This document shows, piece by piece, positions 8,913-22,927 of a stretch of DNA of 24,647 bases. A program made the position numbers and the translations under genes. Numbering within the stretch: the stretch's first letter is position 1; the number at the start of each line of letters is the position of its first letter. Source of the stretch: a virus; IMG/VR virus record IMGVR_UViG_3300046373_000013, positions 1-24,647 of that record. The stretch is one strand, 5' to 3'. A model generated the notes under the pieces. It searched no databases. It worked only from the letters and a program-made list of their open reading frames with translations, and was not told the origin of the DNA.

Positions 8913-9866
8913 ATGGCGACTCAGCCACGATTGATCAAGCCCGACTGCCACCGCCCAGTGAACTGGAACGAGGCCGCCGTCGAGCGCTGCCTCGCAGCAC
9001 AGGGGCATGTGTACGCTCAGGTGAAGAAGGACGGCATCAGGTTCCACGCATGGCTGGATCAGGCCGAGGACGTGCGTATAGTGACGCGTGAGGGCATTGA
9101 GATCAAATCCCTTGTCGTGGTCAAGCATGGACTCGAAGGCCTCCTACAGGCGCTCCCAGAGGGCTTCGTGGTGGATGGTGAGGTAACCATCCCGGGCGTG
9201 CCGTTCGAGGAAGCCAGCGGCATCCTGCGCCGATTCGAGGCTGTATCCGTGCCGGTGCAGTTCCATGTGTGGGACACGTTCCCGCTGACCACACTGCTGG
9301 GCAGCACACCGTTCGAGCACTCGTACGACAACCGACTGGGGAACCTGATCAAGGCATTCACCCAGCAGAACACGGAGAACGTGTACGTCATCACCTGCGA
9401 GGTGTGTAGTACCATGCAGGAACTCACCAAGTTCTTCGACGATGCCCGCGAGAAGGGCGAAGAAGGGTTGGTAGTGAAGGACCCGGGCCTGCATGTCCGG
9501 AACGGCAAGGTCACCGGCCAGTGGAAGATGAAGCCCAGCGATACCTGCGACGGTAAGATCGTAGGCATTGTGTGGGGTACGCCGGGGCTAGGAAATGCCG
9601 GTAAGATCGTGGGATTCACAGTTGAGCTGGAGGACGGTACGTTGTGCGATGCCACGGGACTGACACAGGCCCGCATGGACGCGTACACGAAGGTGTGGAA
9701 TAAAGACCCCACCTCGATCCATATGTACCCAGACGGCAGCTTCACGCCGATCCTTGGCCGGTACTGTGAGGTCTCCTACATGGAGAAGACCAGAACGGGG
9801 TCGCTTCGGCATCCTAACTTCGTACAATTTCGTGATCTCGACTACGCACCGGGGATCAAATCGTAA
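8913..9866 (+). CDS. ATP-dependent DNA ligase (317 aa)
   Basis: Seals nicks by the adenylation mechanism, joining lagging-strand fragments during phage replication. Visible nucleotidyltransferase motifs are: motif I QVKKDGIR with the AMP-accepting lysine K38, motif III-like FVVDGEVTI, motif IV EEGLVVKDPG and motif V QWKMKPSD. The C-terminal ~90 residues (KIVGFTVELEDGT onward) fit the OB-fold domain. At 317 residues it is somewhat shorter than T7 ligase (about 359), which fits the minimal two-domain phage type. ATG 8913 follows the previous stop by one base, with GAGGTG upstream. The TAA stop is the start of a 22-bp repeat shared with 20378-20399. Confidence 0.95.
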   Translation: MATQPRLIKPDCHRPVNWNEAAVERCLAAQGHVYAQVKKDGIRFHAWLDQAEDVRIVTREGIEIKSLVVVKHGLEGLLQALPEGFVVDGEVTIPGVPFEEASGILRRFEAVSVPVQFHVWDTFPLTTLLGSTPFEHSYDNRLGNLIKAFTQQNTENVYVITCEVCSTMQELTKFFDDAREKGEEGLVVKDPGLHVRNGKVTGQWKMKPSDTCDGKIVGIVWGTPGLGNAGKIVGFTVELEDGTLCDATGLTQARMDAYTKVWNKDPTSIHMYPDGSFTPILGRYCEVSYMEKTRTGSLRHPNFVQFRDLDYAPGIKS

Positions 9867-9884
9867 TAGAACCGCACTCATCGT
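9863..9884 (+). repeat. 22-bp direct repeat, copy 1; candidate phage promoter
   Basis: The 22 bases from 9863 (core TAATAGAACCGCACTCATCG) are identical to 20378-20399. In both places the repeat begins with the stop codon of a gene and runs into a non-coding gap, so coding constraint does not explain it. TAATA, AACC and CACT recall T7 and T3 promoters. It precedes the DNA polymerase gene by 21 bases. Promoter activity is inferred. Confidence 0.65.
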
Positions 9885-9905
9885 CCCAGTGAGGAAGAGC
9901 AGAGT

Positions 9906-12248
9906 ATGTACAAGATACTAATTACTGACTTAGAGACGGAGAATAAGCCGTGGTATGGTCAGGTAGCATCTCCTTTCAATCCTGATAACTACATTGTAGC
10001 TCCGGGTTGGAGGGTGGATACAGTACAGGATGATGGTACTGTCACCGTTGGTGAGGTGCATCACAGGTACTTCCACTCGAAGGAAGAAGCAGACGCTGGA
10101 GCCGACTGGTTCAACGTACTGGATGACTGCCAGATCATGGTGTGTCACAACAGCATGTTCGAGCAGAAGTGGTTCCTGAGCAAGTACCGCACGGTGCTGG
10201 AGAACTTCCTGAAGCGCGGTGGGCGTATCGCCTGTACCGCCATGGGTCAGTACCTGATCAGCGGCCAGCAGGACCTGTACCCGTCCTTGGACGAGACCGC
10301 CCCACTGTACGGTGGTACGCACAAGGTCGACGGCGTGAAGATCCTGTGGCAACAGGGTAAGCTCACCAGCGAGATCGACAAGGACCTCCTGATCGAGTAC
10401 CTCGTTGGCCCGTCGGGTGACATCGACAACACTGCCCTGTGCTACTACGGGCAGATGCAGAAGCTCGAAGAGATGGGTATGACTGCCATGTTCTGGGAGC
10501 GGTGCGAGTCTCAGCTGGCGTTCGGGTACTGCGAATGGTTCGGCATGCATGTTGACCGTGAGGTTGCTGCACGTAATCAAGCCGAGCAGGAGGCCGAGAT
10601 CGCCTCCCTGACTAAGCAGCTGGAGGAACTGCTGCCGAAGGACCTGCCCGACTGGGTAGAGTTCAACTGGGGCAGCCTGTACCACATGAGTTCACTCATC
10701 TATGGTGGGCCGATCAAGGGTAGGCACCGGGTGCCGTATGACCCGCCGCAGTACGTGAAGGCAGACTACTACAAAACGGTGGCATGTGACGAGCTAATAC
10801 CCGTGGAGGACATAGCCCAGCACGGTGACATTGATCTGGTCAAGTACGCCAGCGGTAAGAACAAGGGCCAACTGAAGGTGTTCCGCGAGGACACTGCCGA
10901 GGAGAAGCTGAAGTGGGAAGACATTACTACACGACTACCGGGTTTGGTCGACCTGAACAAACTCCCTGATGTGATTAAGGCGAAGTACTTGGGCAAGCGT
11001 GCCGAGTACCGCGGTGCCCTGACTCAGTGCGACGACTCTCCGGTGTACAGCACAGCCGGTGAGGTGCTGGAAGGCCTGAAGAACTTCGTGCCTGAAGTCA
11101 AGCTCATGGTGCAGCTGGCGAAGCTGGAGAAGGACACAGGGACGTACTACCTGCGGACTGAGTACAACAAGGACGGTTCCGTCAAGGAAGTCAAGGGCAT
11201 GCTCCAGTTCGTGGGGCCGGACAACATCGTGCACCACAGCCTGAACACCACGGCCACGGTAACGACCCGACTGAGTAGCTCCCGACCGAACCTGCAGAAC
11301 CTGCCACGCTCCGACGAGGATGACGATGGTGTGGCGAAGTCCAAGGTGAAGGAGATGTTCACCAGCCGATTCGGCCCCGACGGACAGATCATTGAGGTGG
11401 ACTACAGTGCGCTGGAAGTTGTGATGCTCTGCGCCATGACCAAGGATACTGACCTGCTCAAGCTGTTGCAGGCCGGGACGGACATGCACTGCTACCGGTT
11501 GGCGTACAAGCTCGGCGAGGACTACGCCAGCGTTAAGCTGAAGTGCAAGGATGAGGACCACCCGGAGCACGGTAAGTACAAGACCATGCGGTCGGACATC
11601 AAGCCGCTGTCGTTCGCTGACCAGTACGGCGCCAGCGCCGCGGGCCTAGCGTTCAACACTGGTTGCAGCATTGAGTTCGCAGAGGAATTCCAAGCGAACG
11701 AGATGAAGCTGTTCCCGATCTCCCGTGGTTACCGTCAGGTGATCATCGACGAGGTACAGCGCACCGGGAATACCCCGGAGGGTGTGCACCGCGAGATGTA
11801 CGACAACGGCTCGTGGGGCGTGTACCGCCGTGGGTACTTCACCGGGCCTAGCACGACTCGGTACAGCTTCCGCCAGCAGAAGACTTGGGACAAGGAGACC
11901 CGGTCTGAGATCATGGCGTACAAGCCAACTCAGATGGCGAACTACCCGTTCCAAGGTGAGGCCGGGTTCATGATGTCGTCCAGTATGGGCCGCATCTGCC
12001 GCTGGCTCATCAGCAAGGACTGGTTCGACAACCAAGTGTGCTTGATCAACAACGTACACGACGCCGCGTACATGGACGCCGCGAACGCTGAGGTGGGGCG
12101 CAAGGCTGCGCTCGGAGCCAAGGCTATCATGGAGGACGCACCGAAGCACCTGACCAGACTGTGGCCCGCCTATGACATGGCCGACGTACCGTTCCCAGCA
12201 GCCGCTGAGATGGGTTCGAGCATGCAGGTGAAATACCACGTCGAGTGA
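9906..12248 (+). CDS. Family A DNA polymerase with 3'-5' exonuclease domain (780 aa)
   Basis: The replicative polymerase. The N-terminal exonuclease shows D8/E10 in ITDLETE, exo II HNSMFE (N82, with E86 where Asp is usual) and GDIDNT. The polymerase domain has the TTRLSSSRPNLQNLPR primer-template region, motif A VDYSALE (D499), motif B RSDIKPLSFADQYG (R562, K566, Y574) and motif C NVHDAAY (H718, D719). Motif C has Ala where many family A enzymes have Glu (HDE). At 780 residues it is a little longer than T7 gp5 (704). ATG 9906 follows a 39-base gap with GAGG at 9891-9894. It is the largest gene after the RNA polymerase and probably the first of the unit driven from the repeat at 9863. Confidence 0.96.
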   Translation: MYKILITDLETENKPWYGQVASPFNPDNYIVAPGWRVDTVQDDGTVTVGEVHHRYFHSKEEADAGADWFNVLDDCQIMVCHNSMFEQKWFLSKYRTVLENFLKRGGRIACTAMGQYLISGQQDLYPSLDETAPLYGGTHKVDGVKILWQQGKLTSEIDKDLLIEYLVGPSGDIDNTALCYYGQMQKLEEMGMTAMFWERCESQLAFGYCEWFGMHVDREVAARNQAEQEAEIASLTKQLEELLPKDLPDWVEFNWGSLYHMSSLIYGGPIKGRHRVPYDPPQYVKADYYKTVACDELIPVEDIAQHGDIDLVKYASGKNKGQLKVFREDTAEEKLKWEDITTRLPGLVDLNKLPDVIKAKYLGKRAEYRGALTQCDDSPVYSTAGEVLEGLKNFVPEVKLMVQLAKLEKDTGTYYLRTEYNKDGSVKEVKGMLQFVGPDNIVHHSLNTTATVTTRLSSSRPNLQNLPRSDEDDDGVAKSKVKEMFTSRFGPDGQIIEVDYSALEVVMLCAMTKDTDLLKLLQAGTDMHCYRLAYKLGEDYASVKLKCKDEDHPEHGKYKTMRSDIKPLSFADQYGASAAGLAFNTGCSIEFAEEFQANEMKLFPISRGYRQVIIDEVQRTGNTPEGVHREMYDNGSWGVYRRGYFTGPSTTRYSFRQQKTWDKETRSEIMAYKPTQMANYPFQGEAGFMMSSSMGRICRWLISKDWFDNQVCLINNVHDAAYMDAANAEVGRKAALGAKAIMEDAPKHLTRLWPAYDMADVPFPAAAEMGSSMQVKYHVE

Positions 12249-12251
12249 CCG

Positions 12252-12288
12252 CTGTACTTGCAACGCATACCTGACTTTCAAACACGAG
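12252..12288 (+). promoter_or_regulatory. Candidate regulatory motif in the gap after DNA polymerase
   Basis: CTGTACTTGCAA (12252-12263), then CTTTCAA and ACACGAG (12282-12288), lie in the 48-base gap 12249-12296. The same 12-mer, one mismatch allowed, also occurs at 2268, 5859 and 20593. The end of the motif merges with the GAGGA Shine-Dalgarno of the gene at 12297. A phage promoter or leader is possible, unproven. Confidence 0.35.
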
Positions 12289-12296
12289 GAAACAAA

Positions 12297-13097
12297 ATGT
12301 CTGTTCAAAATCTGAGCGCCCTGATCGACGAAGCCATTGAACTCCAAGAAGTGGACATGACCCAAGAGGGTTCTGGCGGCGGTGGCCTGATGCCTGAAGG
12401 CTACGCCATGGCCCGTCTGGTCACGTATATCGAGCTGGGCCAGCACCCACAGGAGTACCAAGGCAAGGCGAAGGCGCCAGCCCGCGAGGTGGTGGCAGGC
12501 TTCAAGCTGTACGGCGGCGAAGACAACTGCTACGACGGCCGCTTCATCAAGACGTTCGACCTGTCGGTGAGTAACAATCCGAAGTCGGCGCTGAAGATCC
12601 TGTTCGATCGCCTGAACTGGGAAGGCAACATGAAACACATGGCCCAAGCACTGGGCAAGGGCTTCCTTGTGCCTATCACCATCAACAAGAGCAAGACCAC
12701 CGGCAAGGAAGGCAACCGCATCAATCTGGCGGGCATCCTGCCACCGATCGATGTGGTGAGCAAGGCGAAGTACCCAATCCCTGAGTGCGAGGACAGTGAT
12801 CTCACGTACTTCTTCTTCGACAAGCCCACCACCGAGACGTGGGCGAGCCTGTTCGTCGAAGGCAACTGGGACGATGGTAAGAGCAAGAACCGCATGCAGG
12901 AGAAGATCCTTACCGCTCTGGATTACCCGGGCAGTGCGCTGGAGCAGCTCGTGAGCGGCGTGGTGCTGCCGGACCTGTCGCCGGACCCTGAGCCAGCCAA
13001 GGTAGAGACCAAGCCTGTGGAGGTTGCACCGGCGAAGGTGGCGACCACCGTGCCGAGCATGCCGTCGATGCCTGCCCTGCCAGTAATGCCGGAGTAA
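12297..13097 (+). CDS. Replication-region protein, possible ssDNA-binding protein (266 aa)
   Basis: A 266-residue soluble protein between the DNA polymerase and exonuclease genes, the place where several T7-like phages keep a single-stranded DNA-binding protein. Residues about 40-200 are beta-rich (MARLVTYIELGQHPQEYQ, VVAGFKLYGGED, FLVPITINKSK), which would fit an OB-like core. The acidic C-terminal tail typical of SSBs is absent; residues about 225-266 are instead Pro/Val-rich (VPSMPSMPALPVMPE). The assignment is inference from position and composition. The frame is open from 12258, but ATG 12297 has GAGGA six bases upstream and fits the gap. It may be one of the more strongly expressed genes, having its own leader and a good Shine-Dalgarno. 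Confidence 0.8.
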   Translation: MSVQNLSALIDEAIELQEVDMTQEGSGGGGLMPEGYAMARLVTYIELGQHPQEYQGKAKAPAREVVAGFKLYGGEDNCYDGRFIKTFDLSVSNNPKSALKILFDRLNWEGNMKHMAQALGKGFLVPITINKSKTTGKEGNRINLAGILPPIDVVSKAKYPIPECEDSDLTYFFFDKPTTETWASLFVEGNWDDGKSKNRMQEKILTALDYPGSALEQLVSGVVLPDLSPDPEPAKVETKPVEVAPAKVATTVPSMPSMPALPVMPE

Positions 13098-13100
13098 GTC

Positions 13101-14102
13101 ATGGACCTGTCCAGCATGCTGGCGGGTCTGCCTGACCAGTTTGATCGTACGGTGCAAGGCCGTACGCTCATTCTGGACAGCGACTTCCCGGCGTACCAAG
13201 CCTCGGCCACAGTGAAGAAGCTACAGACGGCCCTGACGCGCTTCCAGACCCTCGTGGAGACGGAAGTGTTCGTCACTGGGGCCGAGATGGTTCGGGTACA
13301 TCTGACCCCGCGTGGCTGTAGCAAGTGCAGGCGCAGGGACTATCCAACGGTGAAGCCCTACCAAGGGCAGCGCACGGGGCCTAAGCCGGTGCTGTTGGAG
13401 CCTCTCAGGCAGGCCATCGCCACGCACTCTTGGCCGGAGCACTGGTCAGTGTTCTCGTGGATGGACCGTGAAGCCGATGACGGCATGATGATGGACAGTT
13501 TCACGTACGGGCCGAACGGTATCGTGTCCTCGGGTGACAAGGATCTGAGCATCACACCGCATCCGTACTGGATCATCGACGAGGGCCGTCTCGACATTAT
13601 CGAGAACCGATTCGGATGGATCAAACCATCCGAGACTCCGAGCGGCACCAAGAAGGTGCTAGGGCACGGCACCAAGTTCTTCTGGGCGCAGATGCTCATG
13701 GGGGACTCCGCCGACAACGTGAAGGGCATACTGACGTACAAGGGTGCGAAGTGTGCTGCCGTGGGCGCATGGGAAGCCCTACGGAATGTACAGTCTGAGG
13801 ACGAGGCAGCGAACCTAGTGCTACGTGCGTACGCCGACATCGGGCAGGACTTCCTAGCAGAGGCCCAGTGCTTGTGGCTGCGCCGGTCGCTGGACGACTG
13901 CGCGTTCAAGTACCTCAGTGAGTTGGACCTGCACCCACAGTTACGCAAGTGGATGGAAATGCTACACGAATACCACCAGCAAGTGCTGGCACTTAAAGCA
14001 GAGCAGAAGGATGAAGAGCATGGCGAAGTTGAACCGAGCACAAGCGCGAGCATTGAAACACGAGGGGACTCTGGCACTGGACGTCTCCCGTGGGAAGACT
14101 GA
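13101..14102 (+). CDS. 5'-3' exonuclease, FEN/T7 gp6-like (333 aa)
   Basis: A structure-specific 5' nuclease that removes RNA primers and degrades host DNA. Acidic metal-binding motifs are visible: LDSDFPAY near residue 26, DREADDG (D122, E124, D126, D127), SGDKDLS (D146, D148) and MGDSADNVKG (D202, D205), the last matching the helix-hairpin-helix entry of the family. A CSKCRRR element near residue 75 is unusual and might bind metal. ATG 13101 lies three bases after the previous stop, with GGAG at 13091-13094. Its last 83 bases overlap the next gene in another frame. The C-terminal ~40 residues are charged and low in complexity. Confidence 0.92.
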   Translation: MDLSSMLAGLPDQFDRTVQGRTLILDSDFPAYQASATVKKLQTALTRFQTLVETEVFVTGAEMVRVHLTPRGCSKCRRRDYPTVKPYQGQRTGPKPVLLEPLRQAIATHSWPEHWSVFSWMDREADDGMMMDSFTYGPNGIVSSGDKDLSITPHPYWIIDEGRLDIIENRFGWIKPSETPSGTKKVLGHGTKFFWAQMLMGDSADNVKGILTYKGAKCAAVGAWEALRNVQSEDEAANLVLRAYADIGQDFLAEAQCLWLRRSLDDCAFKYLSELDLHPQLRKWMEMLHEYHQQVLALKAEQKDEEHGEVEPSTSASIETRGDSGTGRLPWED

Positions 14103-14259
14103 TCGCATCGGGGATGTCATTGCACAGGTGTGGGATGCGTACTACGCGAACGATCATCGCAGTGTGGAGAACCGGATGGCCTCTCTGCGTAAGCTCAGCC
14201 CGTACCACAGCCGTGAGCTGTACAACGAATTGAACGAGCTGATCTCAGCTCAGGAGTAA
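14020..14259 (+). CDS. Small basic helical hypothetical protein (79 aa)
   Basis: A 79-residue helical protein (start MAKLNRAQARALKHEG, then SPYHSRELYNELNELIS). It is not recognised. Two ATGs, 14011 and 14020, are close together; 14020 is preferred because AAGGA at 14006-14010 is then at a normal distance. It overlaps the end of the exonuclease gene by 83 bases, a longer overlap than usual here. The C-terminal part, beyond the overlap, is the only stretch free of another gene, so its reality depends on that portion. Confidence 0.68.
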   Translation: MAKLNRAQARALKHEGTLALDVSRGKTDRIGDVIAQVWDAYYANDHRSVENRMASLRKLSPYHSRELYNELNELISAQE

Positions 14260-14262
14260 TAC

Positions 14263-14514
14263 ATGGGCACTTTGACCGTGTTACCGGGCGGCGGGGCAGG
14301 TGGCCCCACCCCACCAGATATGAATGATGCAGCGCGCCTGCTGGAACGCGTCCTAGCCATCGCCAAGGAGAACGGTGTGGTGAACGTCGCCATTGCATGG
14401 ACGCCACCCGAGGGTGGTGCGTGCAGCTGCTACAGTGCGGAGGATGGTGGGGTGGCTCTACTGGGTGCCGTGACCGTGCTTCAAGCCCGTATGGTTCAGG
14501 AGATCCGATCGTGA
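14263..14514 (+). CDS. Small hypothetical protein (83 aa)
   Basis: An 83-residue protein with a Gly/Pro-rich N-terminus (LPGGGAGGPTPPDMNDAARL), then a helix, a strand (VVNVAIAWTPPEG) and a second helix (TVLQARMVQEIRS). The layout suggests a small alpha-beta fold of unknown function. Similar short proteins beginning LPGG...PDP are, from memory, scattered in phages. ATG 14263 has CAGGAG ending at 14254. The stop overlaps the next GTG start as GTGA. Confidence 0.73.
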   Translation: MGTLTVLPGGGAGGPTPPDMNDAARLLERVLAIAKENGVVNVAIAWTPPEGGACSCYSAEDGGVALLGAVTVLQARMVQEIRS

Positions 14515-14804
14515 CAGTAATTCGATTCTTGGCTGACTTCGCTCAGCTGTTCATGACCCGCGCTGCCAAGGAAGGTATCAATGACCTGAAGGTGGTGTAT
14601 AGCGAGGAAGACGGAAAGGCGTACGCCGACATCACCGGTCCGCAGGGTGGCGCCATCACCATTGGTGTGGAGCATCCTCTGGATGGCCTGCTGGATGCGA
14701 ACTACACCCCGGAGCTGACCCCAGACCTGTGGGAGCTGTTCCTTCGACAAGAGAAGCCTTGGCGCTTCACTGATCAGGAGATCGCGCCCGATGCAGCCAC
14801 GTAA
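14511..14804 (+). CDS. Small hypothetical protein, GTG start (97 aa)
   Basis: A 97-residue protein (start MTVIRFLADFAQLFMTRAA). A helix-rich N-terminus is followed by beta strands (LKVVYSEEDGKAYADI, AITIGVEH). The frame is open from 14397, but GTG 14511 is chosen: it overlaps the previous stop (GTGA), has AGGAG at 14498-14502, and avoids reading through the previous gene. It overlaps the endonuclease VII start by 14 bases. No family is recognised. Confidence 0.72.
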   Translation: MTVIRFLADFAQLFMTRAAKEGINDLKVVYSEEDGKAYADITGPQGGAITIGVEHPLDGLLDANYTPELTPDLWELFLRQEKPWRFTDQEIAPDAAT

Positions 14805-15219
14805 GCTCACGCGCTCCCAGCTCAGGCCGCTGGGCATGCGCATGCTACAGGAACAGGGTGGGGTGTGCTCCCTCTGCGGTAAGCCTGTGGACCTATCAAT
14901 CAAAGGCGAGATGGTAATCGATCATGATCATGAGAGTGGACTTGTTCGCGGTGCCCTACACCGATCATGCAATGCCGCCGAAGGAAAGGTGGCTAACGCA
15001 GCAGGTCGTTGGGGTGCAAAGAGTATGTCGTATGGGGCCATACTTCCGTGGCTCCGTAATCTTATTACCTATCTGGAGCGAGAACCCCAGCCCTACATCT
15101 ACCCCACCCACCAGACCGAAGAAGAAAAGCGAGTAGCCGCGAACGCTAAGGCCCGCCGTACTCGTGCCACCCGTAAGGCCCGTGAGGTCGTACGCAAATC
15201 AGTCGTCAAGAAGGATTAA
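14791..15219 (+). CDS. Recombination endonuclease VII (142 aa)
   Basis: A Holliday-junction-resolving and debranching nuclease of the T4 endonuclease VII type (His-Me finger), acting on branched replicative DNA and on DNA to be packaged. The zinc pair CSLCG (C26, C29) pairs with a second Cys region HRSCN (C60). The active site IDHDHESG (D44, H45, D46, H47) is followed by LVRGALHRSCNAAEG, typical of the family. The C-terminal ~35 residues are a highly basic tail (RRTRATRKAREVVRKS), likely for DNA contact. ATG 14791 has AGGAG at 14777-14781. The metallophosphoesterase gene starts three bases after its stop. Confidence 0.94.
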   Translation: MQPRKLTRSQLRPLGMRMLQEQGGVCSLCGKPVDLSIKGEMVIDHDHESGLVRGALHRSCNAAEGKVANAAGRWGAKSMSYGAILPWLRNLITYLEREPQPYIYPTHQTEEEKRVAANAKARRTRATRKAREVVRKSVVKKD

Positions 15220-15221
15220 GA

Positions 15222-16184
15222 ATGCGCCTCCTGAAACTCCTAAGCAAAGACCAGCACGTTGATGTGCTATCCCGACACTCCTGCAACGTGCAGGCTGCCG
15301 AGGTGTACACCAAGGCCATGGGACAACCAGTGACCCGCCAGAACGTTGCGTACTGGCGCAGCATCTTCCTCGACGAGGGGAGCAAGGCCAAGGCCGACCG
15401 TGTACTTGCAGCGACCCGCGTGCTGCGCAAGGCCGAGCCGGGTGACGACGTGGGCGACCTGTCATTCGTACCTGAGGTGGCTCGCCGCATCATCGTGATC
15501 GGCGACCTGCACGAACCGTACGTGCACCCCGATGCGTACACATTCCTCGAACACATCAAGAACGAGCACAACCCAGACCTTGCCGTACAGATCGGTGACG
15601 AGACCGATGGGCACGCCCTGAGCTTCCACGAGAGCGATCCAAACCTCGACAGCGCAGGTGTGGAGCTGGACAAGGCCCGGGCCGGTCTGGCGAAGCTGTA
15701 CGACCTGTTCCCGCAGGCTCTGGTGTGCCACTCGAACCACGGATCGCTGGTGTACCGCCGTGCGAAGTACGCAGGCATCCCGATCCAAGTGATCAAGTCG
15801 TACCGTGAGATCCTGTTCCCGGACAACACAGCCGCTGGTTGGCACTGGGCATTCAACTGGAAGGTTGAGACTCCGCTCGGTCCAGTGCTGTTTCGGCACC
15901 AGACCTCCGGCGATGTGCTGGATGCTGCTGCCGCTGAGGGTTGCAGCCTCGTGGTCGGACACGAGCACGGCAAGTTCGGCTCCCGCTGGGGCGCCACTAG
16001 CATGCGGCTGTTCTTCGGTGCGTACACCGGCTGCCTGATCGACAAGGACAGCATGGCGTTCGCGTACGGGAAAATCTACCCGCGCAAGCCGATCCTCGGT
16101 GTGCTCATGATTATCGATGGCGTTCCTGTGAACGTCCCTATGTTGTTGAACTCTGATGGAAGGTGGGTAGGTCCAAATGTATAA
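15222..16184 (+). CDS. Calcineurin-like metallophosphoesterase (320 aa)
   Basis: A two-metal phosphoesterase; in phiKMV-like phages a protein of this type sits between the endonuclease and the RNA polymerase. Motifs in order are GDLHEP (D95, H97), IGDETDGH (D126), SNHG (N172, H173) in place of the usual GNHE, FRH (H226) and GHEH (H247, H249). These are the core metal ligands. Residues 1-90 are a separate helical part with a helix-turn-helix-like segment (NVQAAEVYTKAMGQPVTRQN), perhaps for DNA binding. The substrate, nucleotide or nucleic acid, is unknown. ATG 15222 has AAGGA at 15211-15215. The gene overlaps its successor, a nucleotide pyrophosphohydrolase, by eight bases, hinting at joint nucleotide metabolism. 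Confidence 0.92.
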   Translation: MRLLKLLSKDQHVDVLSRHSCNVQAAEVYTKAMGQPVTRQNVAYWRSIFLDEGSKAKADRVLAATRVLRKAEPGDDVGDLSFVPEVARRIIVIGDLHEPYVHPDAYTFLEHIKNEHNPDLAVQIGDETDGHALSFHESDPNLDSAGVELDKARAGLAKLYDLFPQALVCHSNHGSLVYRRAKYAGIPIQVIKSYREILFPDNTAAGWHWAFNWKVETPLGPVLFRHQTSGDVLDAAAAEGCSLVVGHEHGKFGSRWGATSMRLFFGAYTGCLIDKDSMAFAYGKIYPRKPILGVLMIIDGVPVNVPMLLNSDGRWVGPNV

Positions 16185-16725
16185 GAATCCGCTTTACAAC
16201 TGGGGTGAAGGCTTCAGTAACCAACAAACCCTGCTGTGCGAGGTATGTGGTAAGCGCCCCGGAGCGCACTACTCGCTGGACGTTAAAACCAAGAGTATGT
16301 ACTGCACGCCGGGTGGGCGGGGCGGCGTAGACATGCCGGTATTAGACCTCCCCGGATATCCGGACGGGAATCCCAAGAGCCTACAAGGTGCCAAGAAGTA
16401 CAGCCTACGGTACTTACCGCTCCCCGCGAACATCGCGGTGAACCGGGCATTCGAGGACGGGGCCACGAAGTACGGCCCTGCGAACTGGCGTGAGAAGGGT
16501 GTGGCTGCAAGCGTGTACATCGACGCTGCGCTGCGCCACATCAACCAGTGGTACGACGGGCACCAAGACGACGCCTCAGACTCGGGCATCCCGAACCTTG
16601 GCCACGCCATGGCATGCCTTGCAATCATCCTTGATGCACAGCACTGTGGTACCTTGACCGATGACCGCCCATTCGGCTGCCTTGATACCGACGCAGCCCT
16701 GAAACGTGAGGTGAAAGATGCGTGA
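16177..16725 (+). CDS. DUF5664-type dATP/dGTP pyrophosphohydrolase-like protein (182 aa)
   Basis: Helical domain of the family annotated as dATP/dGTP diphosphohydrolase, expected to split dNTPs to dNMP and pyrophosphate. GATKYGPANWR (from residue 95) and ALRHINQWYDG followed by SGIPNLGHAMACLAIILDAQ are characteristic. The usual acidic GExxD...H pattern is altered: the Glu after Gly is His (GHQDD), and a His is replaced by Asn (IPNLGH), so metal binding may differ. The N-terminal 60 residues carry an extra CEVCGKR...YC element that could hold a zinc ion. ATG 16177 lies inside the metallophosphoesterase 3' end, with GTAGGT upstream. The stop overlaps the next gene by eight bases. The family assignment is firm, activity less so. 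Confidence 0.85.
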   Translation: MYKNPLYNWGEGFSNQQTLLCEVCGKRPGAHYSLDVKTKSMYCTPGGRGGVDMPVLDLPGYPDGNPKSLQGAKKYSLRYLPLPANIAVNRAFEDGATKYGPANWREKGVAASVYIDAALRHINQWYDGHQDDASDSGIPNLGHAMACLAIILDAQHCGTLTDDRPFGCLDTDAALKREVKDA

Positions 16726-16918
16726 CTTCTTCGGGCAACCACTGAGTCCCGGTGATGTGGTGGCGTTCGTCACCAAGCACTACCGGGACCTGACCATCGG
16801 CACCGTGGTGGCACTCACCGCCAAGCAGGTGCGGGTGGAGTACGTGAATGACATCCGCTCGAACACCACTGAGCAGACCCTGCGCTACCCTAGCGTACTA
16901 GTGCGGAGACCAGCATGA
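16718..16918 (+). CDS. Small SH3-like hypothetical protein (66 aa)
   Basis: A 66-residue beta-rich protein (MRDFFGQPLSPGDVVAF, LTIGTVVALTAKQVRVEY) whose pattern fits a small SH3-like or KOW-like barrel. From memory, short phage proteins beginning DFFGxxLxxGDxV are widespread and unassigned. It overlaps the previous gene by eight bases, with GAGGTG at 16708-16713. The stop overlaps the next start as ATGA. Confidence 0.78.
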   Translation: MRDFFGQPLSPGDVVAFVTKHYRDLTIGTVVALTAKQVRVEYVNDIRSNTTEQTLRYPSVLVRRPA

Positions 16919-17223
16919 TAGCCGCCCTAGCAGTGTTTTCTGCAGCGTACGCAACAGTGATGTTGCTAGGGCTGCAATCCAAGCTGATGCGTGACAACAA
17001 ATGGAAGATGAGCTTCTGCACAAGCTGGCTCATCACCTGTGCCCAGACGGGCAGCACGTACGCAATCGCCCACAACGCCCTGCCCATTGAGAGCTACCTG
17101 TTCTTCAGTGGGTTGGGCGGCAGCGTGGGCATTGTGTCTGCGCACTTCGTTTATGACTGGTATGACAAGAGGTTCAACCATGCTTCCGTTTCTGCAAGTC
17201 CCCGTACACAAGGGCCTAAGTGA
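16915..17223 (+). CDS. Three-helix membrane protein (102 aa)
   Basis: Three hydrophobic stretches suggest membrane helices: residues 2-20 (AALAVFSAAYATVMLLGL), about 33-53 (SFCTSWLITCAQTGSTYAIA) and about 60-80 (YLFFSGLGGSVGIVSAHFVY). A polar tail follows. It should sit in the host inner membrane. A holin is conceivable, but T7-like lysis genes lie in the late region, and no endolysin is adjacent, so no lysis role is assigned. From memory, a similar small membrane protein occurs next to nucleotide-metabolism genes in other podophages. The start overlaps the previous stop as ATGA. Its 3' end overlaps the next gene by 44 bases. Confidence 0.8.
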   Translation: MIAALAVFSAAYATVMLLGLQSKLMRDNKWKMSFCTSWLITCAQTGSTYAIAHNALPIESYLFFSGLGGSVGIVSAHFVYDWYDKRFNHASVSASPRTQGPK

Positions 17224-17374
17224 TTCGCTACATGCAGCAATCGACACAGGCAACCACGAAGAAATATACGGCGTGATCGATAACGCGGAGGACGCCTTCG
17301 CCGCTGGGCAGATCGATGCCGTCCAGCTGGGTGACCTGTTGGATGACTTTCGTATCTGGGAGGAAAGTGTATGA
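17180..17374 (+). CDS. Small acidic hypothetical protein (64 aa)
   Basis: A 64-residue acidic helical protein (start MLPFLQVPVHKG, then AIDTGNHEEIYGVIDNAEDA). The frame is open far upstream, but that part runs inside the membrane protein gene. ATG 17180 has AGAGG at 17168-17172 at good spacing. The stop overlaps the next start as ATGA. No family is recognised. Confidence 0.7.
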   Translation: MLPFLQVPVHKGLSDSLHAAIDTGNHEEIYGVIDNAEDAFAAGQIDAVQLGDLLDDFRIWEESV

Positions 17375-17565
17375 TCCAGATGTGTGAGCACTGGGCAGAG
17401 CCACTGCGCGGAAAGTACAAGGGTAGGTTGGGTAGGATTCAGCACCAGACCTCACCTCATCCACTGTCATCGCATAAGCGGCGCTGGGCAATCTGGTTCT
17501 ATCACCCGCAGGCCAAGATGATCTTCATGCAGGAAGATGGCTTCATAGTGAGGATTGATAAATGA
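17371..17565 (+). CDS. Small basic hypothetical protein (64 aa)
   Basis: A 64-residue basic protein (MIQMCEHWAEPLRGKYKG, ending MQEDGFIVRIDK). The pattern of short strands suggests a small beta fold. ATG 17371 overlaps the previous stop (ATGA) and has GGAGG about eight bases upstream. Its stop overlaps the following start, again ATGA. Function unknown. Confidence 0.72.
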   Translation: MIQMCEHWAEPLRGKYKGRLGRIQHQTSPHPLSSHKRRWAIWFYHPQAKMIFMQEDGFIVRIDK

Positions 17566-17723
17566 TGTTCCCCGAGGACCGGGTCGACTATGTCGGCCCA
17601 ATCAAGGCCAAGATGGACGCCGGGGACTACGACGCAGCGCGGAAGCTGCTGCGCAAGGTGCCCAAGGAATTACGCAACAGTGTGTCGTGGACTATCGCGG
17701 CGATGACCGCAATCGTACTTTGA
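17562..17723 (+). CDS. Small hypothetical protein before RNA polymerase (53 aa)
   Basis: A 53-residue helical protein (MMFPEDRVDYVGPIKAKMDA, then YDAARKLLRKVPKELRN). The ATG at 17562 overlaps the previous stop as ATGA, with GAGG at 17549-17552. The stop TGA 17721-17723 forms part of the GAGGT Shine-Dalgarno of the RNA polymerase gene, eight bases before its ATG. Composition and context support a real gene; no function is known. Confidence 0.7.
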   Translation: MMFPEDRVDYVGPIKAKMDAGDYDAARKLLRKVPKELRNSVSWTIAAMTAIVL

Positions 17724-17730
17724 GGTAGCA

Positions 17731-20193
17731 ATGGATCTTTATCAACGTCAGATCGATATCGAGCGTGAGTACACGAACGAAGGGATCGTTCAGGCGATCC
17801 GTAAGTGGGAGAAGGACCTCGCAGAGGGGCGCCTCGCAGACACCGGCGTAGGCCGGAACCTGATCATCCGCACGTACGGACTTGTGCGGGACGAGTTGGA
17901 GAAGATCTGCACAGCTGGAACCCGTGGCGTCGGTGGCCGATACCGCACCCTGCTGAAAGAGATCGGCATGGATCGCTGCGCCGTGATCGGTCTGCGCTCC
18001 GCGCTGGGTCTTGTGGGCGGTGCACGCTCCAAGTCCTCTCGTGACCTGCGCAGGGACCGCGTGGGCCTGCCGCTAGCGCAGGATCTGATCAGTGATGCCT
18101 CCCAGAGTCTGGAGCTGGAGCACATGCTGTGCAAGCTTCAGATCGCTGCGCCGGGGTACATGCACCGGGTGACGAATAGTATGGCTGAGGCCCGCACTAA
18201 GTCCAAGAACCACAGAAAGCGTACGTTCGCAGCCAGCGCCAACAACGTCAAGGTTGGTGCTGAGAACGTTCTGTGGAGCAACGCGGAGGGCGAGGGTGCT
18301 GGCCGTCTGGTGATGGAAGCCCTGATCAATGCGGGCATCATCGAGACGTACGATATTCCCAAGAGTCGCGGGCAGAACTGGGTGGCCATTCGAGCCACCT
18401 CATCGATCGAGGAACACGTTGAACGCATGGGCAGTACCATCAGGGCGTTCCTGATGTACCCGCCGATGCTAGTGCCGCCGAAGCCACACACGAAGGACAC
18501 GCTGTTCTACGGTGCCTCGTACCTCACTGAGGGTATGGCGCCACACTCGTGGACTGTGAAGTTGCGGACCAGACGAGCTGACCATAAGCGGTGGATCGCT
18601 GATAACATCGGGCAGGCTGTGTTCGACGCGGGCAACAAGGCTGCGCAGCAACCGTACGTGATCGACACCGAAACTGCTGGCATCCTCCGCGATGTATACG
18701 CATCTGGCGTGTACAACGGCATCGCGGGTATTCCCACCCGGGACCCCATTAAGCCGCCCGAGTACCCTCACCCCGAGGGCTGGGATCGGGAAGATCCGAA
18801 GCTGCTAGACGCGCACAACGAGTGGAAGGTACTGGCCCGACAAGCATACTCTGACGAGATCGTGCGAAAGTCTCACGTTCTGGAATTCCACCAGACCATG
18901 AAGTACCTCCGTGAGTACTCGGGCAATGCCCTGTACTTCCCAACGTACTTCGACTGGCGTGGCCGCCTGTACTTCCGTAGCCGTATCAACCCGCAGGGTA
19001 CGGACTTGGTCAAGGCTGTGCTACAGTTCGCGAACAAGAAGGCGCTGGGCAAGCGTGGGGTGTACTGGCTAAAGGTTCACGTAGCGACGTGCTACGGCTT
19101 CGATAAGAAGCAGTTCGACACCCGTGCCTTGTGGACGGACGAGAACATGGATATGATCCGGGATGCAGTGAACCGCCATGTGGACTCTGACTTCTTCCGC
19201 GCCGCCGATGCGCCGTGGTGCTTCTTTGTGGCCGCGCGGGAGTTGATCCGGGCCATTGACAGCGGCAGCCCAGAGACTTGGGAGACCGGTGTGCCTGTGG
19301 CTATGGACGCCACCTGCAGCGGCATGCAGCACCTGTCCGCGGTCCTGCGTGACCCGGTGGGCGGGATGTTCACGAATCTCCTGCCGAACCACGGCACCGA
19401 AAAGGAGGACATCTACGCTGGGGTGGCAGCCGTGGCTGTATCGAACATCCAGCGGGACCACGAGAACCTTGTGCAGGCACAGTACTGGCTGAGCGCGGGC
19501 GTCCCACGTAGCGCTGCGAAGCGCCCTGTGATGACGTACGTGTACGGCGGCACCCTCATGAGCTGTGGGGATTACGTGCTGCTGGACATGCATGAGCGCG
19601 GCATGCTGGGCCTACCAGAGTACAGTCCGATGAAGTTGGCCGTGTACTTGGGCCGACACTTGCGCCGGGGTATCGAGAGCGCTGTACCGTCCTCAGCGAC
19701 CGCCATGCGGTTTCTGCGCACGTTGGCCGGACTGATGCCGACGGATCAGGCGATGCGCTGGGTGACGCCAGCCGGGTTCCCGGTGATCCAGCACTACGCC
19801 AAGGAGGAGGTGGTGCGGGTTGACATGCAGGGTCTGGGCATCACGCTCAGCATGACCCGGTTCGACCACACCAAGATGAACCGGTCTAAGTGCGTGAACG
19901 GGGTATCCCCAAACTTCGTGCACAGTTTGGACAGCGGGCACCTTGTACGGGTGATTGCCGCATACGAGGGCTGCCTCATCCCGATCCACGACTCATTCGC
20001 TACACATCCATCGGATGTTGACCGGATGCACGAGGTGCTGCGGGAAGAGTTCGTCCTGATGTACGCCGATGCAGATCCTTTGCAGACGCTAGTGGACTCA
20101 GTGAAACAGTTCACAGAGGCCGAAATCGAGTTGCCGCCGAAGGGCACGCTGGATATCCAGCTGGTTCGGAAGTCGGAATTCTTCATGTGTTAG
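17731..20193 (+). CDS. Single-subunit T7-like RNA polymerase (820 aa)
   Basis: A DNA-directed RNA polymerase that transcribes phage genes from phage promoters without host subunits. Catalytic elements are all present: FDWRGRLYF (D408, R412), VAMDATCSGMQH (catalytic D526), AAKRPVMTYVYG (K597, Y605, the same spacing as T7 K631 and Y639) and IHDSFATH (H753, D754). The region corresponding to the T7 specificity loop, about residues 690-715 (VVRVDMQGLGITLSMTRFD), differs from T7, so a different promoter is expected. At 820 residues it is shorter than T7 (883), and it ends FFMC instead of FAFA. ATG 17731 has GAGGT at 17722-17726. Placement directly before the virion genes is the phiKMV-like arrangement. 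Confidence 0.97.
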   Translation: MDLYQRQIDIEREYTNEGIVQAIRKWEKDLAEGRLADTGVGRNLIIRTYGLVRDELEKICTAGTRGVGGRYRTLLKEIGMDRCAVIGLRSALGLVGGARSKSSRDLRRDRVGLPLAQDLISDASQSLELEHMLCKLQIAAPGYMHRVTNSMAEARTKSKNHRKRTFAASANNVKVGAENVLWSNAEGEGAGRLVMEALINAGIIETYDIPKSRGQNWVAIRATSSIEEHVERMGSTIRAFLMYPPMLVPPKPHTKDTLFYGASYLTEGMAPHSWTVKLRTRRADHKRWIADNIGQAVFDAGNKAAQQPYVIDTETAGILRDVYASGVYNGIAGIPTRDPIKPPEYPHPEGWDREDPKLLDAHNEWKVLARQAYSDEIVRKSHVLEFHQTMKYLREYSGNALYFPTYFDWRGRLYFRSRINPQGTDLVKAVLQFANKKALGKRGVYWLKVHVATCYGFDKKQFDTRALWTDENMDMIRDAVNRHVDSDFFRAADAPWCFFVAARELIRAIDSGSPETWETGVPVAMDATCSGMQHLSAVLRDPVGGMFTNLLPNHGTEKEDIYAGVAAVAVSNIQRDHENLVQAQYWLSAGVPRSAAKRPVMTYVYGGTLMSCGDYVLLDMHERGMLGLPEYSPMKLAVYLGRHLRRGIESAVPSSATAMRFLRTLAGLMPTDQAMRWVTPAGFPVIQHYAKEEVVRVDMQGLGITLSMTRFDHTKMNRSKCVNGVSPNFVHSLDSGHLVRVIAAYEGCLIPIHDSFATHPSDVDRMHEVLREEFVLMYADADPLQTLVDSVKQFTEAEIELPPKGTLDIQLVRKSEFFMC

Positions 20194-20201
20194 GAGGGTG
20201 T

Positions 20202-20381
20202 ATGTGGACTTGGTATTACGATAAGCATTACGATGTAGTGGTAGCGCGGTTTACCACTGCGGATGGCAAGACCTACAACGCGCAGGCAAGAGGTCCATCT
20301 GAGGAGTTCTCGATCGACCAGATCATCGCTGAGATGCAGCTAAACATGAGCAATTACCTAGCTTCCAGAGGTTTGCAGTAA
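20202..20381 (+). CDS. Small hypothetical protein after RNA polymerase (59 aa)
   Basis: A 59-residue protein (MWTWYYDKHYDVVVARFTTA, ending MSNYLASRGLQ). A hairpin-like N-terminus is followed by a helix. ATG 20202 has TAGGAGGG directly upstream, built from the RNA polymerase stop; the GTG at 20187 lies before that Shine-Dalgarno and is rejected. The TAA stop is the first part of the second copy of the 22-bp repeat. Function unknown. Confidence 0.74.
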   Translation: MWTWYYDKHYDVVVARFTTADGKTYNAQARGPSEEFSIDQIIAEMQLNMSNYLASRGLQ

Positions 20382-20399
20382 TAGAACCGCACTCATCGT
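20378..20399 (+). repeat. 22-bp direct repeat, copy 2; candidate late promoter
   Basis: Identical to 9863-9884. This copy is followed by TAC and then GGGAGA (20402-20407), the initiation sequence of T7 and T3 promoters, although the spacing from TAATA to GGGAGA is six bases longer than in T7. It lies in the 84-base gap between the post-polymerase gene and the virion block, the expected place for a strong late promoter. Activity is inferred. Confidence 0.68.
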
Positions 20400-20402
20400 A
20401 CG

Positions 20403-20436
20403 GGAGAGTATGACAGCACAAGATGCGGTACTCTTC
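20403..20436 (+). other. Inverted repeat at the likely 5' end of late mRNA
   Basis: GGAGAGTA (20403-20410) can pair with TACTCTTC (20429-20436), eight pairs including one G-U, with an 18-base loop. It begins at the GGGAGA element after the 22-bp repeat, so an RNA starting there would fold its own 5' end. No T run follows, so it is not a terminator. A stabilising 5' hairpin or RNase III site is inferred. Confidence 0.5.
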
Positions 20437-20465
20437 TGTAAAGTGTGACGTACCTAAGAGGTGAA

Positions 20466-20663
20466 ATGCGAATGTCTTCTGATCAGAAGGTAACCTTTAC
20501 AAGAGAACAAATTGAGTGGTTGGAGCGGGAGTTTCCCGAAGATCCCTACGAGGAATCCTCCGACCTGCTCATCCGTAAGGCAGGGCAGCGCTCTGTACTT
20601 GCAAGAATTAAACAGATCTCACGAGTGGAGACTCGATATGTCCCTGTACATCGTATCTCGTAA
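20466..20663 (+). CDS. Small charged hypothetical protein (65 aa)
   Basis: A 65-residue protein (MRMSSDQKVTFTREQIEWLE, ending RYVPVHRIS) with a charged helix and acidic middle. The first helix vaguely resembles one turn of a homeodomain-like fold, but this is too weak to assign. AAGAGGTG at 20456-20463 precedes; ATG 20466 and ATG 20472 are both possible. It is the first gene after the candidate late promoter and overlaps the next gene by 26 bases. Confidence 0.68.
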   Translation: MRMSSDQKVTFTREQIEWLEREFPEDPYEESSDLLIRKAGQRSVLARIKQISRVETRYVPVHRIS

Positions 20664-21394: not shown

Positions 21395-22927
21395 ATGCAA
21401 ACCAAAGAATCGTACGAAAGTCTGTACCAGAAATACCGCGACGACAGTGCGATCCTTCGGAATGAGAAGTACGCTTACTGGAGTCTCCCTACTGTATTCG
21501 CCGATCCGGACGTAAACTATAACCGGGGTAAGCAGAATCCTGTTCGCCGTGATTTTCAATCGGTGGGCGCTATCCTGACGAACCAGCTGGCCAGTAAGAT
21601 GGCTTCGCTGCTGTTCCCATCCAATCAGTCGTTCTTCCGGCTTGACGCTGCGGTGAACACTGCTGAGATGACTCAGGCCATGGGCGTCAGCGCTAATGAC
21701 CTAGCATCCGGCCTAGCCACGCTGGAGAGTACCGCGTACCGCAGGATCTTCCTGCGAGCATCGTACCATCAGCTGGTGCACACCATGAAGCTCCTGATTA
21801 CGACGGGGAACGCCCTGTTGTACCGGGATAGTCCGGGTACGAACCTGCACGCATACAGCATGCGGCAGTACGCGCTGTGCCGCGATGGCTCCGGTAAAGT
21901 GCTGGATACTGTTCTGAAGGAACGTACCACCGTTGGGCAGCTACCTGCGTCCGTCCAAGGACACTTTGGCGCCCGGGAAGAGTACGATAGCGTGTGCCTG
22001 TACACCCGTATTAAGCGCGAGCGGCGCGGTGTGACCGACGTGTTCGTTGTAACCCAAAGCGTTGAGAACCTGCTGCTCGACACCCACGAGGAGTACCCGG
22101 AGGCAGTGTGCCCGTACATCCCTGTGACTTGGAACCTGATTACCGGTGAGAACTACGGCCGTGGCCTCGTTGAGGACTACGCCGGGGATTTCGCTAAACT
22201 CTCGGCTGTTGCTGAGGCGCTGGCGCTGTACGAGATTGAAGCCTGCCGTGTACTGCACCTCGCTGCCCCGGGCGCCGGTGGTGACGTGGATGCAATGGCG
22301 GAGGGTGAGTCCGGTCAGTGGTTCCAAGCCGACCCGACCAAGGTGCAGGCGTACGAGGCGGGGGACTTCCAGAAGATCAACGCCCTTGTGGCGGATCTTC
22401 AGAGTATCTTCCAGCGCCTCAGCCCCGCATTCATGTACGCAGGGAACACCCGTGACGCAGAACGTGTCACAGCGGAGGAGATTCGCCAGCAAGCCGAGGA
22501 AGCCAACCAGTCACTGGGTGGTGTGTACTCTGTCATTGCAGACGGTCTGCACATCCCGCTGGCCCACATCCTGTGCGCTGAGGTGAATCCAGAGTTCGTG
22601 TCTGAGATCATCGCAGGCGGTCTGACCCTGAGCGTACTCACCGGTGTGGCAGCCCTAGGTCGTTCCTCCGACGTGACCAAGCTGCTTCAGGTAGCCCAAG
22701 TGCTCGCCACCATCCTACCAGTGTTCACTCAGGCCAGCCAACGTCTTGACCCAGAGCGCACCATCTCGAAAGTGTTCGAGGGCTTCGGCCTGAACATAGA
22801 AGAGTACAGCCGCACCGAGGAAGAACTGCAAGCGCTGCAAGAGCAGAATGCCGCCCAAGCACAAGTACCAGTAGCCACAGATGTCGCTGACGTCGCTGGC
22901 CAAATCAGTCCACAAGGAGTCCTGTAA
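21395..22927 (+). CDS. Portal (head-tail connector) protein (510 aa)
   Basis: Forms the twelve-subunit ring at the capsid vertex through which DNA enters and leaves. The 510-residue length, N-terminal helix region (SYESLYQKYRDDSAILRNEK), conserved segment VGAILTNQLASKMASLLFPS, and YIPVTWNLITGENYGRGLVE match T7-like portal proteins (T7 gp8 is 536 residues). The segment RVTAEEIRQQAEE is also typical of this family. The C-terminal 60 residues are Gln/Ala-rich. ATG 21395 lies three bases after the previous stop, with a GGGGA upstream. The stop overlaps the scaffold start as TAATG. Confidence 0.95.
   Translation: MQTKESYESLYQKYRDDSAILRNEKYAYWSLPTVFADPDVNYNRGKQNPVRRDFQSVGAILTNQLASKMASLLFPSNQSFFRLDAAVNTAEMTQAMGVSANDLASGLATLESTAYRRIFLRASYHQLVHTMKLLITTGNALLYRDSPGTNLHAYSMRQYALCRDGSGKVLDTVLKERTTVGQLPASVQGHFGAREEYDSVCLYTRIKRERRGVTDVFVVTQSVENLLLDTHEEYPEAVCPYIPVTWNLITGENYGRGLVEDYAGDFAKLSAVAEALALYEIEACRVLHLAAPGAGGDVDAMAEGESGQWFQADPTKVQAYEAGDFQKINALVADLQSIFQRLSPAFMYAGNTRDAERVTAEEIRQQAEEANQSLGGVYSVIADGLHIPLAHILCAEVNPEFVSEIIAGGLTLSVLTGVAALGRSSDVTKLLQVAQVLATILPVFTQASQRLDPERTISKVFEGFGLNIEEYSRTEEELQALQEQNAAQAQVPVATDVADVAGQISPQGVL

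Follow-up and report, generated by a model that had tools for sequence, protein, structure and literature searches.

A 22-bp sequence that occurs twice in the viral record IMGVR_UViG_3300046373_000013 (IMG/VR) very probably represents the promoter of the phage's own single-subunit RNA polymerase of the T7 type. The record, a genome fragment of 24,647 bases, was analysed in its entirety and is referred to as the window. Both copies (GTAATAGAACCGCACTCATCGT) are located on the plus strand, at positions 9863-9884 and 20378-20399, and they are identical, as a preliminary description of this DNA had reported. They form the longest exact direct repeat of the window; the runner-up has 16 bases. Allowing as many as 3 mismatches brought up no third copy in the window and no copy at all in 100 dinucleotide shuffles. 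A more tolerant scan, which the preliminary description had suggested with four mismatches, was run over the window with a limit of 7 mismatches in the 22 bases and likewise returned just the two copies. As judged from the sequence, the case for a promoter rests on position and conservation and not on repetition alone.

Each copy begins on the final base of the last sense codon of a gene, i.e. one base ahead of the stop codon and not within it as first described, although the stop codons do overlap the 5' edges of the copies. Both stops are TAA (9864-9866 and 20379-20381) and run straight into TAG; the resulting TAATAG is found on the plus strand of the window only at the two repeat copies. 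Copy 1 is situated between a gene for an ATP-dependent DNA ligase (8913-9866, plus strand; Pfam DNA ligase domains), whose stop codon it overlaps, and the gene for a family A DNA polymerase (9906-12248, plus strand; Pfam DNA_pol_A), the first gene past the copy. Copy 2 lies downstream of the gene for the presumed promoter reader, a T7-type RNA polymerase of 820 amino acids (17731-20193, plus strand; Pfam RNA_pol, E 1e-86; profile match to T7 RNA polymerase structures), and of a small orphan open reading frame (ORF), and upstream of the head and portal genes. On that side, the first ORF of the late unit (20472-20663, plus strand; 63 amino acids from this ATG; phrog_5394) is followed by the gene for the head-tail connector, or portal (21395-22927, plus strand; Pfam Head-tail_con). 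The earlier assignment of the two intergenic copies to positions before the DNA polymerase gene and the virion genes agrees with the Pfam annotation, and the window itself encodes a candidate cognate polymerase.

Judged by its RNA polymerase, this uncultivated phage is related to the Corkvirinae. The enzyme is 56-70% identical to Corkvirinae polymerases, the nearest named ones being those of the Pseudomonas phages YMC11/06/C171_PPU_BP (Kantovirus, 70%; hereafter C171) and Ep4 (67%), followed by Phimunavirus, Kotilavirus and Stompvirus phages of Pectobacterium and Dickeya (56-60%). A search for close relatives among viral contigs with the polymerase alone gave no match. An alignment search yielded 80 loci. 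For the motif counts, 13 loci of the Corkvirinae type (456 kb) were compared with 67 more distant phage loci that bear a single-subunit polymerase (1.07 Mb); individual loci are numbered here with the prefix L. At the DNA level the window aligns with its relatives in partial stretches only, and whole-genome identity therefore does not explain a shared sequence at the repeat sites.

Across the relatives the sites follow a common pattern, WTAGAAYNNCACTNNNN and then a purine (R), of which each genome has its own version: ATAGAACGACACTTATA followed by A in Kotilavirus, TTAGAATATCACTTGGA followed by A in Stompvirus, and ATAGAACCGCACTCATC followed by G in the window. The strict motif has 24 matches in the 13 Corkvirinae-type loci and none in the 67 distant ones, and the reversed pattern has no match in either set. 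Since the pattern was derived partly from the scanned genomes, the count of 24 is descriptive; the window repeat, which was found independently, is a fair test. A scan of the window with WTAGAAYNNCACTNNNNR returned exactly two matches, the repeat copies, and shuffled sequences gave none. A matrix built from four sites of the PhiM1/PP90 type and then run over other genomes recovered the Kotilavirus and Stompvirus sites at matching gene positions. The sole match of the exact 18-mer among viral contigs (L013) falls inside the coding sequence of a terminase-like protein; the phage concerned is unrelated, and the match was dismissed as chance.

The places of these sites agree as well. Ep4 carries a repeat of its own, 39 identical bases that start with AATAGGTTGTGTCGCTAAGCCCAG, at exactly the two gene positions of the window, one copy preceding the DNA polymerase gene and the other following the RNA polymerase gene and a gene of the HNH type. 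In C171, GTAATAGAATGACACTCTGTGCCC precedes the DNA polymerase gene. Four related sites were found in each of PhiM1 and PP90, both positions among them, and Phimunavirus, Kotilavirus and Stompvirus phages possess four to six sites of one motif, again including both. The uncultivated L020 and L027 show their own version at both positions, the one ahead of the DNA polymerase gene lying directly past the ligase gene. All eight relatives whose sequence covers the DNA polymerase gene have a site of this type before it, and a genome-specific version at a corresponding place was found in Ep4, C171, PP90, PhiM1, PP16, MA2, BF25/12, PPWS1, CX5, L015, L020 and L027. The preliminary description had proposed a promoter of the phage polymerase and had named a lack of conservation in related phages as part of what would refute it; the proposal is supported by this comparison.

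The relatives also help to set the register of the putative promoter. The nearest uncultivated relative, L015, has ATAGAAGGACACCTATA followed by GTACGGGGAGG directly past its polymerase gene, and in phage VSW-3 the start of the promoter has been mapped by 5'-RACE (PMC9624206). When the three are aligned in register, ATAGAAGGACACCTATA is followed by GTA in L015, TAATTGGGCCACCTATA by GTA in VSW-3 and ATAGAACCGCACTCATC by GTACGGGAG in the window. Because these sites align, we place the start sites at G9883 and G20398. The predicted core then comprises the 17 bases ATAGAACCGCACTCATC (-17 to -1), at 9866-9882 in copy 1 and 20381-20397 in copy 2, the repeat extends from -20 to +2, and an error of one or two bases is possible. 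All motif sites share this register, in which about 17 bases separate the 5' edge from a purine at +1. Hence, the geometry had been overestimated as two to six bases longer than that of T7; aligned with the relatives, it is 17 bases to a purine start, as in VSW-3 and T7. The extra bases arose because the comparison was anchored on TAATA and the start was taken at GGGAGA.

Neither of these two anchors withstands the comparison. TAATA was rejected as a counterpart of the TAAT of T7: it is the double stop, TAA running into TAG, and what the relatives retain is WTAG. GGGAGA is indeed present after copy 2 (20402-20407), where it would occupy +5 to +10 within a hairpin stem, but as a start it was rejected, since GGG is missing from this place in copy 1 and the relatives set a different register. 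The likeness of AACC to T3 is borne out in this register: it falls at -13 to -10, and the T3 promoter has AACC at these same positions. CACT is present, one base upstream of its place in T7. With T7 and T3 the window site shares a 17-base core, the CACT element and a purine start; it differs in the shifted CACT, in ATAG instead of TAAT/AATT, in CATC instead of TATA at -4 to -1 and in the lack of GGGAGA at +1. At the position of T7 N748 the window polymerase has Asp, as does T3 polymerase. A simple code relating residue 748 to promoter bases -11/-10 was nevertheless rejected, for the window and C171 polymerases both have Asp, yet their sites read CC and TG, respectively; the agreement with T3 is noted as a coincidence only.

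In the model that we propose, the polymerase would bind ATAGAACCGCACTCATC, melt the DNA around the start and initiate with G at 9883 and 20398. Copy 1 would drive the DNA polymerase gene and the replication genes that follow it, and copy 2 the virion genes. The RNA from copy 2 would open with 5'-GUACGGGAGAGU, and a hairpin of 13 bp would start at the second base.

Known systems provide precedents for this arrangement. In both KP34 and VSW-3 a proven promoter is located directly past the polymerase gene, with few further copies (PMC6834552, PMC9624206). The VSW-3 promoter, TTAATTGGGCCACCTATA followed by GTA (PMC9624206), resembles the window site in its 17 bases upstream of +1, in CAC at -8 to -6, in the GTA start and in having one copy past the polymerase gene plus further intergenic copies. 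It has other bases at -17 to -9 (which is also where the L015 site mainly differs from it) and four copies in a complete genome, and its start was determined by 5'-RACE whereas that of the window comes from alignment. The KP34 promoter, TAATGTTACAGGAGTA followed by GG (PMC6834552), is alike in gene order, in its place directly past the polymerase gene and in the small number of copies per genome; its sequence is unrelated, has 16 bases and lacks CACT, its RNA polymerase is 37% identical to that of the window, and there is no match to the hairpin model described below. A plain scan recovered the three published KP34 promoter sites, and an imperfect sequence in the replication region of KP34 (L012:12983-13001, TAATGTGATACGAGTAGGA) may be a fourth copy. 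Promoters have also been predicted from repeats in the phiKMV-like phages phi80-18 and Ahp1 (PMC7316996, PMC5014404), but these are predictions only, with other sequences and from other branches. PP99, for which promoter predictions have been published, was set aside as a relative because it is SP6-like. We found no published Corkvirinae promoter in the literature searched, which did not extend to Zhu et al. 2025 on the promoter specificity of T7-like polymerases.

Several observations weigh against a promoter of the phage polymerase. Just two copies are seen, the record being a fragment, and the bases at -4 to -1 (CATC) depart from TATA. In the relatives, the second C171 site (TTGACTCTGCACTTAGT followed by G) and the L022 site match the motif only partly, and the Ep4 motif retains ATAG but not CACT. 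Finally, an earlier prediction for KP34 from its longest repeat alone failed in vitro.

Directly past copy 2, the predicted late transcript contains a hairpin at its 5' end (20399-20440, plus strand), with a 13-bp outer stem from +2 and an invariant inner element. Its folding energy is -18.8 kcal/mol (z = -3.4); copy 1 is followed by no such hairpin (z -0.3). Relative to the start sites predicted independently for the window, C171 and L015, the stem begins at +2 in all three. Across 11 aligned phages, both sides have changed in 12 of the 13 outer pairs, and the inner GYA/UGC element shows either no variation or variation on a single side; 91% of the alignment cells pair, compared with 42-59% for slid partners. 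Deriving the structure from the very sequences in the alignment works in its favour, but the controls by sliding and shuffling gave a clear result. With a covariance model the hairpin was detected once in every Corkvirinae-type genome tested, only past the RNA polymerase gene; KP34 and the other distant relatives had no match. Rfam holds no family for it and gave one sub-threshold match elsewhere. An intrinsic terminator was considered and discarded: the hairpin is followed by AAAGTG and not by a T run, and no terminator-like site was found there on the plus strand. Leaders of T7 carry a hairpin at the 5' end or a site for RNase III; by analogy, the hairpin described here could stabilise the late mRNA or be cut by RNase III. 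A bolder interpretation, which we regard as possible though not as the one to be expected, is that a two-part module opens the Corkvirinae late transcript, namely a genus-specific promoter and a covarying hairpin (from about +2) with an invariant inner sequence, GYAC..GMUGCG. The latter would constitute an undescribed leader-RNA family with one member per genome. Its invariant inner part, recognised by a protein or nuclease, would set late-gene expression, and the hairpin would be not only a generic stabilising stem. As a separate observation, a short hairpin from +1 follows the DNA-polymerase-side site in some relatives (L008:12165-12187 and L020:1703-1723); it is absent in the window and in C171.

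The strongly conserved hairpin next to copy 2 raises the question of whether the repeat works as RNA only, as a processing or leader element such as an RNase III site. This appears very unlikely: apart from its first base the hairpin lies outside the repeat, copy 1 has none, and the repeat itself shows no base-pairing variation. In addition, no such hairpin accompanies the equivalent sites that the relatives have at other places, before the DNA polymerase gene or, pointing leftward, close to the left end. Slightly less probable still, the repeat could act at the DNA level, in replication, nicking or packaging. For this explanation speaks that T7 promoters also serve as origins, but the nick motif of the phiKMV type, CGACNNNNNCCTACTCCGG, has no match in the window at fewer than 2 mismatches and none at the repeat. 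A repeated motif of KP34 was likewise once proposed as a nick site as in phikF77 (PMC4411677), yet the location of the window copies at the heads of the replication and virion gene blocks suits transcription units, and the motif is similar to promoters that have been proven.

Even fainter is the prospect that the copies are traces of gene transfer or homing, left by the traffic of HNH endonucleases. Genes of the HNH type do adjoin one or the other site in C171, Ep4, PP90, PhiM1, MA2 and BF25/12; the sites persist, however, with no adjacent HNH gene in PP16, L015, L020 and the window. Moreover, the site sequence varies between genera and matches within a genome, as expected for polymerase-promoter pairs. 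In such phages the host polymerase transcribes the early genes, and a host promoter would fit into this picture, but we give it hardly any credence: neither copy has a sigma-70-like site (-35/-10 hexamers), and the versions of the relatives vary in a genome-specific manner. A sigma-70 scan of the entire window gave one weak match, below the count in shuffled sequences. A promoter of the phage polymerase thus remains by far the preferred explanation.

The comparison also revealed motif sites at further places. Several Corkvirinae have a leftward site in non-coding DNA near the left genome end (L006:490-507, L005:504-521, L008:509, L010:454-471, L009:10289-10306, L011:32794 and L003:15543, all minus strand), which points at the terminal repeat; the window ends short of that region. 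To our knowledge T7 promoters all point right, and a conserved leftward site of the promoter motif is unusual by comparison with T7. Additional sites of Kotilavirus and Stompvirus (L008:11179 and 23007, L007:8878 and 21172, L009:19491 and 33072; also L006:9797) are located upstream of the DNA polymerase gene at a distance of one to a few genes, as in Phimunavirus, and near the end of an acetyltransferase gene past the RNA polymerase; no equivalents of these were matched in the window. In PhiM1 the bases at -13 to -9 vary among its four sites (L006: 9797, 10518, 20951 and, on the minus strand, 490), while they are constant in Kotilavirus and Stompvirus, so the strictness with which these bases are read may vary between genera.

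Furthermore, the gap around the predicted promoter past the RNA polymerase gene is a spot for insertions (window 20187-20381; L004:20945-21490; L003:37422-37934; L009:32118-32594). Ep4, C171 and BF25/12 have HNH-type genes there, and L015 and PP16 have nothing. In the window the gap contains the orphan ORF of 64 amino acids (20187-20381, plus strand; from the ORF list), whose stop overlaps the 5' edge of copy 2; it has no match in Pfam or PHROG and no tblastn match in the relatives. Endonuclease-type insertions also split polymerase genes (L010:19707-22900, L009:20033-23071, L010:11006-14050 and L027:1843-4979), affecting the RNA polymerase in PPWS1 and the DNA polymerase in BF25/12, PPWS1 and L027. 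Perhaps these splits are introns.

Promoters of this kind are known as such. What the present analysis would add, on the strength of sequence comparison, is a core corrected to 17 bases and its predicted start base, a family-wide motif and a conserved hairpin in the late leader. Few promoters have been mapped in the phiKMV-like branch, and promoter prediction has been described as the limiting step for the use of new phage RNA polymerases (PMC11475235). By comparing gene positions across relatives one obtains a pair of polymerase and promoter that can be tested and for which the first base is predicted; a template designed on the previous register, with its start at GGGAGA, would be misplaced by several bases. 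A set of such pairs over about ten related polymerases would allow residues of the polymerase loop to be matched to promoter bases.

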